Assembly: GCA_029098185.1 (NCBI GenBank)
Contig: JAQXNV010000040.1
Location: 1 to 64,000, forward strand
Length of the DNA stretch: 64,000 nucleotides
Direction: 5' to 3'
Source: Oscillospiraceae bacterium
GTDB lineage: Bacteria; Bacillota; Clostridia; Oscillospirales; Acutalibacteraceae
Below, piece after piece: positions 2,744 to 10,336 of the stretch (positions within the stretch are counted from its first letter, which is position 1; each line of letters opens with the position of its first letter). The notes beneath the pieces were generated by a model, which made no database searches, was not told the origin of the DNA, and worked only from the letters and a program-made list of their open reading frames with translations. Position numbers and translations under genes: made by a program.

Positions 2744-3163
2744 TTGAATGTCATTACCATTGTTGATGATGACAACGGTTTGCTGTTCCATCATCGACGG
2801 CTGAGCCAGGACCGTTTGCTGCGGGACTATATCCTACACATGATCGGGGATCGTCGCCTGTGGATGAACGATTATGGGAGCAGATTGTATGGGGAACACC
2901 CCAACATCGTCGTGTCGGAATCGTATCTGACAGCGTGTCCGGCAGAGGATTACTGCCTCGTTGAGGAGGTCGATCCTGCCACCATTGTGGATCGAATTGA
3001 CCGTCTGTACCTATTTCACTGGAACCGCCTCTACCCGTCGGATCTGCAATGTACCCTCTGTTTGGAGCACTGGACTTTGGAGCATACCGATGAATTAAAG
3101 GGTTCCTCGCACAAAAAAATCACACTGGAAGTCTACAAAAAGCATAGGGGGAAGCAATCATGA
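2744..3163 (+). CDS. Conserved hypothetical protein (139 aa)
   Basis: Complete ORF (DDDNGLLFHHRRLSQDRLLRDYI...LFHWNRLYPSDLQ); its stop overlaps the ATG of the next gene (ATGA). I recall similar Clostridial ORFs being labelled 'ribonuclease Z' without obvious RNase Z motifs. Confidence 0.7.
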   Translation: MNVITIVDDDNGLLFHHRRLSQDRLLRDYILHMIGDRRLWMNDYGSRLYGEHPNIVVSESYLTACPAEDYCLVEEVDPATIVDRIDRLYLFHWNRLYPSDLQCTLCLEHWTLEHTDELKGSSHKKITLEVYKKHRGKQS

Positions 3164-4584
3164 AACAAAAATTCCGCGTATTTTTGGCGGTGTTGTGTAC
3201 GCTGGCCATTACACTAACGCCACTGTCTGTCTCTGTTTCCGCTGCGGAATCGACGGCGGCGGAAACGGTTCTGGAAAGCGATGAACTGGCACGTTGTGAT
3301 GTCAAGATACCAAGCTATACCGGAAAAGCCTACACGGTGTTAAACAACAATGAGCCGTCCTTTACGGCAAAAGAGAAAACAAACACACAGGCCTTTGAGA
3401 CCTACAGCCCTTTGGATGCTCTGGGCAGATGCGGCGTTGCGTATGCCAATATTTGTCCGGAGATCGAGCCGACAGACACGCGGGGAGACATCAGCGCAGT
3501 CCATCCCAGCGGGTGGCAGTCCAACATGGGCTGGGAGCGCTGTCATTTGATCGGCTATCAGTTGTCCGGCGAAAATGCCAACAAGGAGAACCTGATCACC
3601 GGCACCCACTATTTCAATGTCAGTGGGATGCTGCCTTTCGAAAATATGGTAGACGACTATGTGGATGAAACAGGCAATCATGTTCTCTATCGCGTGACAC
3701 CGCATTACACCGGCAAAAATCTGATCGCAGATGGTGTTGAGATGGAGGCCTGGTCAGTAGAAGATCAGGGAGAGGGCATCTGTTTCCACGTATTTTGCCA
3801 CAACGTCCAGCAGAATCGGCAGATCAATTACGCAACGGGAACGGTCAAAGTCTTAAAGCCCACCGTTTCTCTAACAGGCAAAACCGCTACCTATACAGGA
3901 AAATCCATTGCCATCGGCAGTGCTAAGCGAAAGGATACCGCAGGCGCTCTTTCTTATACTTATTATGTAAATAGTAAGTGCACCAGCAAGACGACAAAAC
4001 AAAACAGCGGCGCTGCCAAAACAGGCGGCGCACCGGTCTATGCCGGGACGTACTATGTCAAAGCGACTGCGGCAAAAACAGCCCTGACCACTGCCGCCAC
4101 CAGTAAGGCAGTGAAGCTGGTCGTGAAAGGAAAAACACAGACGATCAGCGGCGGCACTTATCAGAAAACCTATAAACAATCGACATTGGCAAAAAGCAGA
4201 CAGTCGTTCCGGATCGGCGCGAAATCTTCCAGCGGCAACCTGACCTATCAAAAGCAGTCCGGCAGCGGAGCATTGTCCATCAGCGGCAATGGAACCGTAA
4301 CGGTTGCCAAAAATACAGCGCCTGGAACGTATACCGCAAAGGTGAAGATGACGGCTAAAGGAACAAAAGCCTATGCTTCTACAAGTGCGGTTCGAACCAT
4401 TACTGTCCGCGTGACCAAGACAACGACACCAAAGCCTGCCACAAGTTTTGGTACCTGTTATTGGACACCGTCCGGCTCTAAGTATCATTCCACATCCCAT
4501 TGTCCCACCTTATCGAGATCAAGAACCATCTACAGCGGTGCTAATCCGCCCAGTGGATTACAGCCGTGTAAGGTCTGCCATTAA
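3160..4584 (+). CDS. Secreted DNA/RNA non-specific endonuclease (EndA/NucA-like) with Ig/MBG-like repeats and C-terminal Cys/His module
   Basis: Signal peptide; nuclease core GWERCHLIGYQLSGENANKENLITGTHYFNVSGMLPFE; repeat region; C-terminal CYWTPSGSKYHSTSHCPTLSRSRTIYSGANPPSGLQPCKVCH. Confidence 0.88.
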   Translation: MKQKFRVFLAVLCTLAITLTPLSVSVSAAESTAAETVLESDELARCDVKIPSYTGKAYTVLNNNEPSFTAKEKTNTQAFETYSPLDALGRCGVAYANICPEIEPTDTRGDISAVHPSGWQSNMGWERCHLIGYQLSGENANKENLITGTHYFNVSGMLPFENMVDDYVDETGNHVLYRVTPHYTGKNLIADGVEMEAWSVEDQGEGICFHVFCHNVQQNRQINYATGTVKVLKPTVSLTGKTATYTGKSIAIGSAKRKDTAGALSYTYYVNSKCTSKTTKQNSGAAKTGGAPVYAGTYYVKATAAKTALTTAATSKAVKLVVKGKTQTISGGTYQKTYKQSTLAKSRQSFRIGAKSSSGNLTYQKQSGSGALSISGNGTVTVAKNTAPGTYTAKVKMTAKGTKAYASTSAVRTITVRVTKTTTPKPATSFGTCYWTPSGSKYHSTSHCPTLSRSRTIYSGANPPSGLQPCKVCH

Positions 4585-4590
4585 AGACAC

Positions 4591-4632
4591 AAAGCTCCTC
4601 TACATTGCTAGTGTGTAGGGGAGCTTTTTTTA
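4591..4632 (+). terminator. Rho-independent terminator
   Basis: aagctcctctaca...tgtgtaggggagctttttttt hairpin with T tract. Confidence 0.85.
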
Positions 4633-4793: not shown

Positions 4794-6503
4794 ATGGATC
4801 TTTCCACATTATCGGTTGAAGAGATCAATAAATTATCCGCTCAGCAAGGCGCCAAAGCGCTCCAAAAGCTGCGGGAAGAAAGTCTTGATCCCATGACCAT
4901 CAATGAACAGCTTTTAATGACGCTTTTGCGGGACAACGCAGATACGGAGATCGGCAGAAAGTACGACTTTGCTTCCATCCACTCCATTGCAGAATACCAA
5001 AAGCGGGTCCCGGTCAGCACTTATGACGATTACGCAGATTATGTCTATCGAATGCTCTATAACGACGAGACCAATCTGATGACCGCCTACGATGTGCAGC
5101 TCTACACCTCGACTAACGGTACCATGGGCAACCCGAAGATCGTGCCCATGACGGATAAGGCCATTGCGGTGCAGAATTTTTACAATGCCCAGGTCCACAG
5201 CGGCGTCATCAACGAGGGCGTCACAGATTACAGCGGCCATTTCTTATCACTTTTGGAGTGCCGATTCATCGAGACAAAGGGCGGCAAGAACTTCGGCCAC
5301 CTTTCTTCCATCATGCTTCAGGACTCGGCGCCGATAATGCAGCACATCACCTCTACGCCGATGGAAGCGCTGTTCCCCCAGGGCGATACGAATGCCCGGT
5401 ATTTACAGGCTCGGTTCGGCCTGGCCACGGCGGACATCACCTCCATTAACTGCTCTTTCCTCAGCATTGCCGTAGAGCTGCTGCGGTACATTGAAACAGA
5501 ATGGGAGATGCTGGTGGATGACATCGAGCACGGCACCATCAACGAGGACATCCGGATGCCGGAGGAGGTGCGGGAAAAGCTGCTTGAGAGAATCGAGCCT
5601 ATGCCGGAGCGGGCCAAAGAGCTGCGGGAGATCTTCCAGCAGGGCTTTGACGAGCCGTTTGCCCCAAAGGTGTGGAAGAAACTCCGGCTCATTTGCGGTG
5701 TTGGCACCGGCCCCTTTGAGATTTACGACAGTAAGCTGAAGGAACGGTTCGTCAACGATCAGGTCCACTTTTTCTATGCGGGTATCAGTTCAACTGAAGC
5801 GATGTTCTCTGTGCCGGTGTCCCTGGACAGCAAGGACAGCGCTCTGGTGCCAAACAGTGTCTTTTATGAGTTTCTGCCTATGGATGCTAACGGCGATTTT
5901 TCTCAAGTTGTCACGATGGACAAGGTGGAAGTGGGCAAAGAGTATGAGATCATCATGACTAGCCCTTCGGGGCTGTACCGGTATCGCATGGGTGACTGCA
6001 TCCGGATCATGGGAATGTACAACAAGCTGCCGCTGATTCGGATGCAGTACCGTATTGGCAACATGGTGGAGATCATCGACGACCACACCACGGAAGATAT
6101 GCTCACTGCGGCCGTTGTGGATACAGCGAAAAAGTTCCACTTTGACCTGGTGGACTTTACCGTTTACGCCGACCGGGATGCTATGCCGCCGCGGTATGTT
6201 TATCTTTTGGAGATGGGCGATCATCCCGACGGATTGAAGCTGGAGGAGATGCGCCAGTACTTAGACGAAAGGCTTTGCACCTACAGCCCCGACTTGAAGG
6301 AGTATCAGGAAAAGGGCATCGGCGGCCAGACGGGCCTGCATATTTTGCAGGAGGAGACATACCTGCTGTACAAGGACATCATGGTGATGAAGGGGCGGAG
6401 CTTTAGCCAGGTGAAACCGGTCCATATTATCCGCAATAACTTCCAGTATCGATTCTTCTTCAGCCTGATCGACAGAGCATGGGAGGAAGCGGATGACGAA
6501 TAA
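4794..6503 (+). CDS. GH3 auxin-responsive-promoter family adenylate-forming protein
   Basis: ORF preceded by aaaggagg; GH3-like motifs LYTSTNGTMGNPKIVPMTDKAI, YAGISSTEAMFS, YRYRMGDCIRIMG. Confidence 0.85.
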   Translation: MDLSTLSVEEINKLSAQQGAKALQKLREESLDPMTINEQLLMTLLRDNADTEIGRKYDFASIHSIAEYQKRVPVSTYDDYADYVYRMLYNDETNLMTAYDVQLYTSTNGTMGNPKIVPMTDKAIAVQNFYNAQVHSGVINEGVTDYSGHFLSLLECRFIETKGGKNFGHLSSIMLQDSAPIMQHITSTPMEALFPQGDTNARYLQARFGLATADITSINCSFLSIAVELLRYIETEWEMLVDDIEHGTINEDIRMPEEVREKLLERIEPMPERAKELREIFQQGFDEPFAPKVWKKLRLICGVGTGPFEIYDSKLKERFVNDQVHFFYAGISSTEAMFSVPVSLDSKDSALVPNSVFYEFLPMDANGDFSQVVTMDKVEVGKEYEIIMTSPSGLYRYRMGDCIRIMGMYNKLPLIRMQYRIGNMVEIIDDHTTEDMLTAAVVDTAKKFHFDLVDFTVYADRDAMPPRYVYLLEMGDHPDGLKLEEMRQYLDERLCTYSPDLKEYQEKGIGGQTGLHILQEETYLLYKDIMVMKGRSFSQVKPVHIIRNNFQYRFFFSLIDRAWEEADDE

Positions 6504-8259
6504 TAACGCTGTATTTGACGGGAAATTGACTGCCAATAACAAGCTGATCTCCCGTTCCTTCCGGTCTTTGATGATGACCATGATGTTTGCTGGCGTCGTG
6601 GCCATGGCTGGTTCCTTTATCGACGGCGTCGTCATCGGCAACGTTATGGGACAGCAGAGCATGGCCGCTTTCAGTTATGCTTCACCAGTCTTTTTGCTCA
6701 TCGCTTCCCTGGCCGGTATTTTTGCAAACGGCGGCAAGGCGCTCTGCTCTCAGTATATCGGTGAGGAAAAATATGGAGAGGTGCGCAAAAACTTCACCAT
6801 GGCAGGGATCACTGTCATCGTGCTGGGCCTTGTGATCACGGCTGTCTGCATGACGCTTTCTACGCCTATCGCCATGCTGCTGGGCGCCAGAGACGACCTT
6901 GTCCCTCTGGCAGCCGATTATATCTTTGGCCTGGGCATCGGCGCCGTGCCCATTATGCTGATGCAGCTCATCACCAGCTATCTATGTCTTGACAACGCAG
7001 AAAGGCTGTGCTTTTTTGGCGCTGTTTGCATGACTGTCGTCAATATCGGGCTGGACCTGCTCTTTTCCATGGTCTGGCAGGGAGGCCTTTTGGGCATGGG
7101 CCTGGCCACCTCTCTCAGCTATGTGGCGGCACTACTGCTGGAGCTGGTATACTTTTTCCGCAAGGACCGACTGCTGCGGTTATCCCATCCGGGCCGTTGT
7201 GGAAAGCAGCTTTTGCAGCTCACCAAAACCGGATTGCCCAGCGCTGTCAGCCGTGTCTGCTTCAGCGTGGCCAACATCCTGCTCAACTCCATGCTGTTTG
7301 CCTGTGCAGGCGCAGCGGCAGTTTCCGCTTTTTCGGTCCAGTCTACAGTCAATATGTTCGTCAGCGCCATCTTTGCCGGCGTCACCTCGGAGATCTCCGT
7401 CTTTGCCGGCATCTTCTACGGCGAGCGGAACAAGACAGCTTTAAAGGCATCGTTCCTCACGGCCTGCAAATACGGCCTGATTCTGTCGGTGATCTTAGGC
7501 GTGATCATCTTCGCTTTTGCGCCGCAGCTTGCCGGGCTGATCTTAAAATCTGACGGGCAGACGCTGGCCATTGCCGCCAACAGCCTGCGCTTTTTGAGCA
7601 TCAGCCTGCCGACGGAAGTCCTCTCCATGACGCTGATCTACTACTATCTCTCTACCGATAAGGTGCGGCTCTCCCATGCGGGATGTTTGCTCCACAACTT
7701 GATCTTAGTCATTTTGCCAGCTCTGGTCTTAAAGCAGTTTATGGGCATCAACGGCATTTGGCTCAGCGCGCTGATGTCCGGATTGCTGCTGTATCCCACT
7801 ATGCTGCCACTGCTGCATCGGTATGGGGGCGGCTCTCACCTGGAGCGCTGGATGGCGCTGCCAAAAGACTTTATCCCAGCAGACCAGCGTGTCTTTGAGG
7901 TATCCATTACCAATGAGATGAACCAGGTCATGGCGTCTATCGACAGTCTGCGGCAGTTTTGCCAGGACAACGGTGTGGACGAAGAAAGGACCCGGCGCAT
8001 CTGCCTTTCCATGGAGGAGATCGTTGGAAATATTGTCCATCATGGCAGTAAAAAGCCGGGACAGGTGCTCATTGACATCCGTTTTACCACCGGTGGGACA
8101 GATGCGTGTCTGTCTGTGCGGGATAACGGCGTGAAGTTTAATCCGTTATCCTACCAGAATCGGAGCAGCCAATACGGATTACAGATGATCCGGGGCATCA
8201 CCAAGAAGATGACCTATTGCTACACGACCGGCATGAATAACCTGAATCTTTATCTTTAA
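6493..8259 (+). CDS. MATE-family multidrug/solute exporter fused to C-terminal anti-sigma-factor-like HATPase (RsbW/SpoIIAB-type) domain
   Basis: About 12 TM MatE core, then ~125 aa with N-box MEEIVGNIVHHG, G1 VRDNGVKFNP, G2 SQYGLQMIRGI. Overlaps upstream gene by 11 nt. Confidence 0.88.
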   Translation: MTNNNAVFDGKLTANNKLISRSFRSLMMTMMFAGVVAMAGSFIDGVVIGNVMGQQSMAAFSYASPVFLLIASLAGIFANGGKALCSQYIGEEKYGEVRKNFTMAGITVIVLGLVITAVCMTLSTPIAMLLGARDDLVPLAADYIFGLGIGAVPIMLMQLITSYLCLDNAERLCFFGAVCMTVVNIGLDLLFSMVWQGGLLGMGLATSLSYVAALLLELVYFFRKDRLLRLSHPGRCGKQLLQLTKTGLPSAVSRVCFSVANILLNSMLFACAGAAAVSAFSVQSTVNMFVSAIFAGVTSEISVFAGIFYGERNKTALKASFLTACKYGLILSVILGVIIFAFAPQLAGLILKSDGQTLAIAANSLRFLSISLPTEVLSMTLIYYYLSTDKVRLSHAGCLLHNLILVILPALVLKQFMGINGIWLSALMSGLLLYPTMLPLLHRYGGGSHLERWMALPKDFIPADQRVFEVSITNEMNQVMASIDSLRQFCQDNGVDEERTRRICLSMEEIVGNIVHHGSKKPGQVLIDIRFTTGGTDACLSVRDNGVKFNPLSYQNRSSQYGLQMIRGITKKMTYCYTTGMNNLNLYL

Positions 8260-8286
8260 GCCTATGGCAGAAAAGGAGTGTATCTG

Positions 8287-8595
8287 ATGTTAGAAATCAA
8301 AAAGCAAGTGGAAGGCCAGCAGGTGCAGATCGATCTGATCGGCAACCTGGATACCAACACAGCGCCGGATCTGGACGCTTTGATGAAAACGGTTTTTGAG
8401 GAAGGCGCTAGCGATATTGTGCTGGAGCTTGGCCAATTGAAATATGTGTCCAGTGCGGGCCTGCGCGTGATTTTGCGTGTGCAAAAGAAGATCAATGCCA
8501 TCAAGGGTCGTTTTGTGGTGCGCCACCCCAATGCGATTGTGTCGGAGGTTTTTGCTTCTACCGGCTTTGATGAAATTTTGACCATCGAAAAATAA
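8287..8595 (+). CDS. STAS-domain anti-sigma factor antagonist (RsbV/SpoIIAA-like)
   Basis: MLEIKKQVEGQQVQIDLIGNLDTNTAPDLDALMK...LKYVSSAGLRVILRVQKK. ATG at 8287 with aaaggag upstream; the ORF track starts at 8278. Confidence 0.88.
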   Translation: MLEIKKQVEGQQVQIDLIGNLDTNTAPDLDALMKTVFEEGASDIVLELGQLKYVSSAGLRVILRVQKKINAIKGRFVVRHPNAIVSEVFASTGFDEILTIEK

Positions 8596-8596
8596 A

Positions 8597-8627
8597 CAAA
8601 AAAGCACCCGGTATGGGTGCTTTTTTC
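8597..8627 (+). terminator. Rho-independent terminator (bidirectional-like)
   Basis: aaaaaagcacccggtatgggtgctttttt. Confidence 0.9.
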
Positions 8628-8635
8628 TTGCCTAT

Positions 8636-10336
8636 TTAAGCGTCGATGACAACGACAGCCTGTTTTCCCAGTTCTCTGTAGCGCTCTGCCACCAGCGATT
8701 TGTTCCAAAAGACTCGACCGTGGCTGTTGTAGGGATCGTTAAAATAATAGTTGTCCTTGTCGTAGCCGGTCAAAACGAGGCAGTGCTCCTCAGCGATCCA
8801 GCGATAATATTGGCCTGTACTAGAGACATACCAGCCGGCTGTCTTGTAGGAGGGCACCATATTCATGGTGGCCCAGAGCAGGACCGGTTGGCCGTTGTCG
8901 AGGTAGTGTTCCAACGTGGAGAGCGATTTGCCCTTCAGCGAAACAGCCTGCTTGTTTTTGGGCAGCATCTTGTTCATCGTGGCAGCAATGGTGTTGGAAT
9001 AACATCCATAGCCGCTGTAGCTGCTGGGATTACCGATAAATGCCATGTCGGGGTGAGGGCCATACAGCCGTCCGCTTTGGTAATACAGGCCGCCCTTTGG
9101 CAGATTGCGGACCGTTTTTGCGATGGTAGCGTTGACCTTGTAATATTGCAGCACCATGGTCGCACTGGCGGCCTCACAGCCCGTAGGCCAGAAGGTCTGG
9201 CTCAAATAGGGCACATGGAGATAGGGGTACGTCTTGCCCTTGACCGCCTTGGAAGCGGAACTGTTGTACGCTTCTTTGGTGCCGATCGCTTTGACTTTGT
9301 AATAGTATCCTTTGCCCATGCTGCAGGTCTTATCGATGTAGCTGGTAGTTTTTTCGCCCTGCACCGTTTTGATGCGGGTATAGGAACCTGTTTTTTTGTC
9401 TCCACGATAGATGCGGTAGGATACAGCGCCTTTGCTCTTGTTCCATTGCAGGCGGATCGCCATGCGGGTTTCCGGCGTTGTCTGTACCGTAGGCGCTTTT
9501 AAGCGTACCGTGACGGTACAGCGGGCCGTTTTGCCATTTTTACTCTTGGCGGTAATGGTCGTCGTGCCCACCTTTTTGCCTGTAACCTTGCCGGAAGCAG
9601 ACACAGTAGCAACGGAAGGCTTGCTGGATTTCCAGGAGACCGATTGATCGGAGGCGTTTTCCGGCGTGATATGCGCTTTCAGCGTGATAGAAGCCCCTTG
9701 TTCCATGGTGGCGGTGGTACGGCTGAGCTTAATGCCGCTGACAGGAATGGGGACGACCGTGACCGTGCAGACAGCGATTTCTGTACCGGCGGTGACAACG
9801 ATGTCGGCAGTACCTTCCCGCAGGGCATAAAGGGTTCCCTGATCGTCCACATCCACAATGGAATCGTCACTGCTGTGATAGGAAACCGCCGTATTTTCCG
9901 GCTGGACTGTTACAGGAAGTGATGTGCGCTGGCCTTCTGCGAGCGTCATGGTTTCGGGAACTTGCAGATCGATTAGTTTTGGTGTCACCGTGCAAGAAGC
10001 GGTCAATGTGCCGGCCGCGGCGGTGATGGTGATAGGGGTAGGGCTGTCCGCTAAGATCGTGACTAGTCCGTCCGCTGTGACCGATACCACCGACGGATTC
10101 GAGGATGTCCAAAGGATAGGGACCTGAGGATCTTCTGGAGAGAGGGTGGCGGTCAACTGGACGCTGCTGCCGACCACGCCGGAAAGATCGGTCTGATTGA
10201 GGGACAACGTCGGGGCAGCAGCAGAGGAGCTATCCGATACAGAGGGGACTTCCTCAGCAAAAACAGGCAGGGCCGCAGTGGTGCTGACGAGGAACAGCAT
10301 CGTCAGCAGTGCGGCCAAAATACGGTTTTTTCGCAC
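8636..10336 (-). CDS. Secreted Big2 Ig-like/FN3-like protein with C-terminal C39-like cysteine peptidase domain
   Basis: Signal peptide from a probable GTG start at 10336 (MRKNRILAALLTMLFLVSTTAALPVFA). Two or more Big2 repeats (SVSWKSSKPSVATVSASGKVTGKKVGTTTITAKSKNGK), an FN3-like segment, then PYLSQTFWPTGCEAASATMVLQYY...EEHCLVLTGYDKDNYYFNDP. Confidence 0.85.
   Translation of the reverse strand: MRKNRILAALLTMLFLVSTTAALPVFAEEVPSVSDSSSAAAPTLSLNQTDLSGVVGSSVQLTATLSPEDPQVPILWTSSNPSVVSVTADGLVTILADSPTPITITAAAGTLTASCTVTPKLIDLQVPETMTLAEGQRTSLPVTVQPENTAVSYHSSDDSIVDVDDQGTLYALREGTADIVVTAGTEIAVCTVTVVPIPVSGIKLSRTTATMEQGASITLKAHITPENASDQSVSWKSSKPSVATVSASGKVTGKKVGTTTITAKSKNGKTARCTVTVRLKAPTVQTTPETRMAIRLQWNKSKGAVSYRIYRGDKKTGSYTRIKTVQGEKTTSYIDKTCSMGKGYYYKVKAIGTKEAYNSSASKAVKGKTYPYLHVPYLSQTFWPTGCEAASATMVLQYYKVNATIAKTVRNLPKGGLYYQSGRLYGPHPDMAFIGNPSSYSGYGCYSNTIAATMNKMLPKNKQAVSLKGKSLSTLEHYLDNGQPVLLWATMNMVPSYKTAGWYVSSTGQYYRWIAEEHCLVLTGYDKDNYYFNDPYNSHGRVFWNKSLVAERYRELGKQAVVVIDA

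Follow-up and report, generated by a model that had tools for sequence, protein, structure and literature searches.

Partner switching has been described chiefly as a means of controlling sigma factors, with a few known targets of another kind. The closest described systems are the SpoIIAA-SpoIIAB-SpoIIE and RsbV-RsbW-RsbU switches of Bacillus and SiaABCD of Pseudomonas aeruginosa, a partner switch with a non-sigma target in which SiaC activates the diguanylate cyclase SiaD (PMC8457831, PMC7647112). The locus described here occupies positions 4794-8595 of the window (the whole 64,000-nt stretch of DNA that was analysed) and consists of three genes, which encode a GH3 enzyme, a fusion of a MATE transporter with a HATPase domain, and a STAS protein. 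Like the Bacillus switches, it combines a HATPase of the SpoIIAB/RsbW fold with a STAS protein of the phospho-serine type, and SpoIIE occurs in its relatives. It differs from them in that the HATPase is fused to a transporter with no sigma factor detected nearby, the STAS motif reads SSAGLR and not DS(S/A)G(L/I)G, and the phosphatase is missing from the operon. With SiaABCD it would share the logic of a partner switch directed at a non-sigma target, although that system acts on a cyclase instead of a transporter, its SiaC carries the phosphate on threonine, and kinase and target are unfused (PMC8457831, PMC7647112). No published description of MATE fusions with RsbW, HATPase or SpoIIE was found in the open-licence PMC literature. 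The arrangement is real, recurrent and apparently undescribed, a new combination of known parts.

The three genes are flanked on either side by a terminator-like stem (Table 1) and, therefore, probably form a single unit. The stem behind the STAS gene was listed on the minus strand; it is readable on the plus strand too, because A runs precede it and T runs trail it. The initial annotation had proposed a three-gene transcription unit closed by a terminator, with an 11-nt overlap between the GH3 and MATE ORFs and a gap of 27 nt between MATE and STAS; the stems and the coordinates bear this out, and the domain names that it gave (GH3, MATE, RsbW-like HATPase and STAS) were recovered by Pfam. No sigma-70 consensus promoter was found for the operon. 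Its G+C content is close to that of the window (52.7% vs 53.7%), so that the composition shows no sign of foreign DNA acquired recently. The upstream neighbour is a secreted endonuclease and the downstream neighbour a 584-aa protein on the opposite strand, neither with an obvious link to the three genes.

Table 1 Features of the GH3, MATE-HATPase and STAS operon and its borders (window coordinates)
Feature	Coordinates	Strand	Basis
Terminator-like stem, ends upstream unit	4591..4627	+	15-pair stem, T tail
GH3-like acyl-adenylating/amide-forming enzyme, 569 aa	4794..6503	+	Pfam GH3, GH3_M, GH3_C above cut-off
GH3 nucleotide motif I, TSTNGTMGNPK	5106..5138	+	GH3 alignment
GH3 motif II, YAGISSTE, E335 kept	5775..5798	+	GH3 alignment
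GH3 motif III, GLYRYRMGD, D401 kept	5970..5996	+	GH3 alignment
C-terminal Lys K541 of QVKP	6414..6416	+	Invariant in GH3 alignment
MATE transporter fused to RsbW/SpoIIAB-like HATPase, 588 aa	6493..8259	+	Pfam; AlphaFold2; MATE structure matches
C-terminal HATPase_c_2 domain	7861..8256	+	Pfam; model pLDDT 86; PDB folds
N box EEIVGN, E509 and N513	8014..8031	+	Alignment
G1 box RDNG, D544 and G546	8119..8130	+	Alignment
G2-like YGLQM, G562	8173..8187	+	Alignment
STAS-only protein, anti-anti-sigma type, 102 aa	8287..8595	+	Pfam, TIGR00377, SpoIIAA structures
Codon of STAS Ser56	8452..8454	+	Aligned with SpoIIAA phospho-Ser58
Terminator-like stem, ends three-gene unit	8598..8626	.	12-pair stem, A run before, T run after

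The first protein is a full-length GH3 enzyme according to Pfam, in which the N-terminal, middle and C-terminal models of the PF03321 family are all matched (GH3 220.5 bits, GH3_M 84.5 and GH3_C 53; cut-offs 23.6), and its family profile retrieves plant GH3 structures, JAR1 among them, with E about 1e-92. It has the fold family in common with the plant acyl-acid amido synthetases (JAR1, GH3.12, GH3.5) over its whole length, together with motifs II and III, whereas motif I is altered: N replaces the usual S of the (T/S)SG(T/S) found in relatives, giving TNGTMG. GH3 enzymes are best known from plants, as the initial annotation remarked, but the family is not confined to them: the bacterial member OlsH produces N-acyl-ornithine (PMC12493201). 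OlsH, a GH3-like lyso-ornithine lipid synthetase, is a distant homologue of the window enzyme and shows that a bacterial GH3 protein can yield an N-acyl amino acid (PMC12493201). An OlsH-like role in ornithine lipid synthesis was rejected for the window protein, which scores 82.9 bits with the OlsH model NF052613, far under the equivalog cut-off of 620. Two further differences are that no OlsI-type acyltransferase partner was seen at the window operon and that partner-switch neighbours are not described for OlsH. The product of the window enzyme would most likely be an amide, because OlsH makes such a compound and because proteins that fit amide chemistry adjoin other GH3 genes, namely ATP-grasp proteins in loci L123, L288 and L218 and AAT/CBAH hydrolase-type proteins in L191 and L193.

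The second protein is a MATE family member by its match to MatE (PF01554; 102.3 bits vs a cut-off of 24.9), while the cut-off of the TIGR00797 subfamily is narrowly missed (134.2 vs 147.4). The AlphaFold2 model of the fusion, built on a shallow alignment of 9 rows, is confident (pLDDT 84.3, pTM 0.86), and Foldseek ranks MATE structures highest for it, with a TMt of about 0.82. Among the fold matches is ClbM, one of the MATE exporters of biosynthetic clusters, which likewise adjoin biosynthetic genes; none of the solved MATE structures matched carries a HATPase fusion, unlike the window protein. The C-terminal domain matches HATPase_c_2 with 45.4 bits at residues 474-580 (cut-off 27.4). Modelled alone, on a likewise shallow alignment of 5 rows, it gave a pLDDT of 86.1; SpoIIAB, UsfX and RsbW are the PDB folds nearest to it, histidine kinases rank behind them, and SiaB is among the weaker matches; a family profile agrees in placing it nearest to SpoIIAB/RsbW. 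All four of the tested ATP-site residues are kept (the catalytic Glu E509, the Mg-binding Asn N513, and the G1 Asp and Gly D544 and G546), and together with G562 they confirm the N, G1 and G2 boxes of anti-sigma HATPases that had been noted at the MATE C-terminus.

The STAS gene starts with ATG at 8287, preceded by AAAAGGAG at 8271-8278. Its product matches the STAS model of Pfam with 50.7 bits and exceeds the cut-off of the ant_ant_sig superfamily (TIGR00377; 75.2 vs 53.45 bits), but stays below the cut-off of the SpoIIAA equivalog (TIGR02886; 45.6 vs 114.75 bits); its nearest solved relatives are SpoIIAA proteins. A phosphorylatable Ser is present in 51 of the 51 STAS domains compared. The serine of the RsbV/SpoIIAA type claimed by the initial annotation is indeed conserved in the window protein, in which S56 aligns with Ser58 of SpoIIAA.

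No SpoIIE/PP2C phosphatase is encoded in the window operon, which is thus not a complete partner-switching module. The source genome (90.7% complete) holds three SpoIIE matches: one on contig C43, which is probably the sporulation SpoIIE; a weak one on C18; and one on C17 (L075), which has STAS, HATPase and C39-type ABC exporters as neighbours and whose SpoIIE domain is interrupted by an in-frame TAG, either a genuine one or a product of misassembly. A single SigF probe, which distant sigma factors could escape, found no sigma factor beside the partner-switch or MATE-HATPase loci. The fusion was not found in five other genomes of the genus (0/5 at E 1e-60) and, therefore, is an accessory cassette in the source organism. 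A role in phage defence was dropped, as PADLOC gave no match. A link of the window operon to eCIS was set aside too, since eCIS_core has no match in the source genome, a weak test in that the control genomes likewise gave none.

Is the fusion an exporter tied to GH3, as the initial annotation implied, or a more general module? Full-length MATE-HATPase fusions occur in 39 genomes of a 394-genome order sample, counting matches that reach the end of the profile. A single-protein search of genome contigs with the window fusion retrieved no relatives, while the GH3 alignment search did. The DNA around 53 fusions, mostly from MAGs, was examined with home-made profiles; gene calls were mechanical, and small genes may be missed. 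STAS, SpoIIE or another HATPase lies within 5 kb of 39 of the 53 fusions, compared with only 2 of 22 plain MATEs, those in L129 and L217. In both of these the HATPase belongs to an adjacent fusion gene, which is a MATE-HATPase in L129 and either a MATE-HATPase or an ABC-HATPase in L217, where an amino-acid ABC transporter ATPase likewise bears a HATPase-like domain. With these two cases excluded, Fisher p is about 7e-10, uncorrected for relatedness. A GH3 neighbour, however, is missing in 48/53 fusions. NRPS modules adjoin 5/53, several of them with a terminal reductase, and the fusions in L154, L156, L160, L175 and L287 adjoin eCIS core proteins, a related AAA ATPase or both. Fusions without GH3 neighbours, which the initial annotation had named as refuting its idea, are thus the majority. 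The fusion is therefore a general module and not a GH3-specific exporter, and this part of the earlier interpretation was abandoned.

The idea of a built-in kinase requires a similar restriction. At least one canonical ATP-site residue (E, N, D or G) is missing from the HATPase in 45 of the 53 fusions; the four residues are kept, besides the window, in L181 and several NRPS-linked fusions. The loss of ATP-binding residues that the initial annotation had named as a test thus does not affect the window protein but is seen in most of its relatives, and a built-in kinase cannot be taken as general. That the fused HATPase is degenerate in these relatives while separate HATPases nearby keep their ATP-site residues suggests that in many loci it is a docking domain and that another protein acts as the kinase. 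A test of whether the degenerate fused HATPases are those that have a separate kinase close by gave no support to this expectation (Fisher p = 0.47).

Another important question is whether the grouping with GH3 could be accidental. GH3 adjoins the fusion in seven loci (the window, L122, L123, L181, L217, L287 and L288), and these parts recur jointly in at least seven genera. Most of the seven lie near STAS and/or SpoIIE, so that the search proposed in the initial annotation, for fusions scored by GH3 and STAS neighbours, did find a recurrent association, although one that leaves out most fusions. GH3 precedes the fusion in the window and in L181, L217 and L287, and follows it in L122, L123 and L288; this variation in order makes mere shared descent less likely. 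The full set is found in L287, which has STAS, GH3, MATE-HATPase, SpoIIE and HATPase in this order on one strand; SpoIIE is also present in L122 and L288, and SpoIIE plus a HATPase in L123. ORFs overlap by 11 nt in the window and by 4-14 nt in others of these loci. In the order sample, both genomes besides that of the window with a strong GH3 and a fusion (2/2) have the two adjacent, as do 2/12 in the class sample, in which most GH3 genes are not adjacent to a fusion; a simple binomial puts the chance of such adjacency at no more than about 1e-4 for the order sample and at about 1e-3 to 2e-2 for the class sample. Because it recurs in unrelated genera, the grouping of GH3, MATE-HATPase and STAS is more than chance.

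GH3 genes also accompany partner-switch genes where MATE is absent (L127, L128, L179, L180, L183, L187, L191-194, L196 and L215), for example as STAS, GH3 and SpoIIE-HATPase in L127 and L128, and in L218/L256 GH3 occurs with a STAS-APH fusion, again without MATE. The GH3/partner-switch loci that lack MATE span Clostridia and Coriobacteriia. On a GH3 tree of 104 rows, the partner-switch association is clustered, with 5 changes vs 12.2 in shuffles (0/500 as low), and well-supported branches force at least three changes. Two partner-switch loci, L181 and L179, are the rows nearest to the window GH3; several rows, including that of the window, are on long branches, and their exact placement is thus unsure.

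We consider it an even call that the operon is a reduced form of a recurrent module whose partner switch has a membrane exporter, and not a sigma factor, as its target. Such a switch is the cheapest account, since it would explain why the HATPase is fused to the transporter, why STAS and SpoIIE lie nearby, why no sigma factor was detected and why the producers vary. In its favour are the seven GH3/fusion loci, the GH3 tree, the contrast between fusions and plain MATEs, the SpoIIAB/RsbW-like fold, the conserved STAS serine and the result of the SigF probe. Against it stand the window operon's lack of SpoIIE, the degenerate HATPase of 45/53 fusions, the many fusions without GH3, the five genomes of the genus without the fusion at E 1e-60 and the altered GH3 motif I. 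From the sequences, predicted structures and gene associations we infer the following scheme. The GH3 enzyme would adenylate an acid and then couple it to an amine, for which an amino acid is the likeliest candidate, to give a small amide, e.g., an N-acyl amino acid, and the MATE part would export this amide or a compound derived from it. The fused HATPase would bind STAS, and the window copy probably phosphorylates Ser56; free unphosphorylated STAS would dock on the HATPase and alter transport, while phospho-STAS would release it. Resetting STAS would fall to a SpoIIE phosphatase that has a membrane sensor and that, in the window organism, would have to act in trans. The window HATPase may both dock STAS and act as the kinase, because this copy is intact and the operon holds no other HATPase. 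A fuller version, in which STAS is a reversible, phosphorylation-controlled subunit of the MATE by way of the fused HATPase, within a cassette common to GH3-amide and NRPS producers and perhaps contractile injection systems, is put forward tentatively, as plausible but short of probable.

The roles of the two domains could also be reversed, with MATE serving as a sensor in which substrate passage or occupancy sets the kinase activity of the HATPase and STAS phosphorylation reports to another target. Sensors in which a transporter domain is joined to a kinase are known from other systems, such as SLC5-type CbrA. The retention of E509, N513, D544 and G546 in the window, as in L181 and several NRPS-linked fusions, would suit such a sensor, as would an operon without a separate kinase and the fusions that adjoin contractile injection genes or loci without an obvious small-molecule product. 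However, a fused HATPase that is degenerate in most relatives while nearby separate HATPases are intact fits a receiving domain and not a sending one, and the SigF probe revealed no nearby sigma factor that could serve as a downstream target; we regard a MATE sensor as unlikely.

A conventional switch, in which the HATPase is a membrane-anchored anti-sigma factor, STAS frees a distant sigma factor and MATE is an anchor or a separately useful exporter, appears improbable. It is favoured by the likeness of the HATPase to SpoIIAB and RsbW, both of them proteins that hold sigma factors, and by the place of STAS in the anti-anti-sigma superfamily, but the one SigF probe applied gave no sigma factor at the partner-switch or MATE-HATPase loci, the SpoIIAA-specific model is not reached, and the MATE domain is complete, with a MATE fold in the AlphaFold2 model. 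It is also improbable that three independently useful genes simply share an operon, with the fusion working apart from GH3: the many fusions without GH3 and the many class-sample GH3 genes away from a fusion would allow it, whereas the seven independent adjacencies in differing order, the overlapping ORFs and the GH3 tree test argue against it.

If the transporter-targeted partner switch is true, a conserved HATPase-exporter fusion, encoded time and again with enzymes that make products, would extend partner-switch logic to the direct control of secretion, and the fusion would offer a route to small molecules under regulation in Clostridia and Coriobacteriia of the gut and rumen. Bacterial GH3 enzymes beyond the ornithine-lipid pathway gain a genomic context for product search. 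The recurrence of the parts suggests a little-studied control over what bacteria release.

Relatives' loci (L-numbers) place the MATE transporter-HATPase fusion and partner-switch genes in several neighbourhoods. Genes of contractile injection systems (Baseplate_J, Tail_P2_I, eCIS_core and an AAA ATPase) enclose or adjoin such cassettes in L287, L154, L156, L160 and L175, and in one published eCIS survey we found no mention of partner-switch or MATE-HATPase regulators at such systems. NRPS genes immediately adjoin the fusions in L059, L060, L062, L145, L146 and L295-L296 (in L296, the MATE beside the NRPS has no detected HATPase); several of these NRPS end in a reductase domain, from which aldehyde-type products would be predicted. 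Three-domain STAS-APH-HATPase fusions (L055, L058, L130, L131, L133, L135 and L138) neighbour MATE-HATPase, SpoIIE and, in several of the seven loci, a PHP-like protein, and STAS-APH alone adjoins GH3 in L218 and L256.

In the window, the Endonuclease_NS_2 protein upstream of the operon has an apparent signal peptide, and its C-terminus bears a long extension. Elsewhere in this genome (locus L075), a non-sporulation SpoIIE, with an in-frame TAG within its phosphatase domain, belongs to a STAS-SpoIIE-HATPase cluster, after which come C39-peptidase ABC exporters.

Coordinates of the features discussed
Feature	Locus	Position
Endonuclease_NS_2 protein	window	3160-4584
Non-sporulation SpoIIE	L075 (G000:C17)	6766-9030
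Cassette/injection-system region	L287	2-5605 and 11465-15938
AAT/choloylglycine-hydrolase-type protein	L191	10749-11819
AAT/choloylglycine-hydrolase-type protein	L193	5431-6741
ABC transporter ATPase with C-terminal HATPase-like domain	L217	4007-5098

A second, separate GH3 context is the pairing with a stand-alone condensation-like protein of ~460 aa, located after or before GH3, in gut Clostridia (L041, L046, L047, L204, L207 and L213). In Coriobacteriia, a STAS-GH3 pair precedes the AAT/choloylglycine-hydrolase-type protein, and four related loci (L228, L243, L244 and L249) have a plain MATE, lacking a HATPase, ~3 kb 3' of GH3.

In L217, GH3 and MATE-HATPase lie directly downstream of the ABC ATPase bearing the HATPase-like domain. 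The operon of this ATPase apparently serves polar amino-acid uptake, and the ABC transporter is possibly a second transporter type carrying a partner-switch domain.
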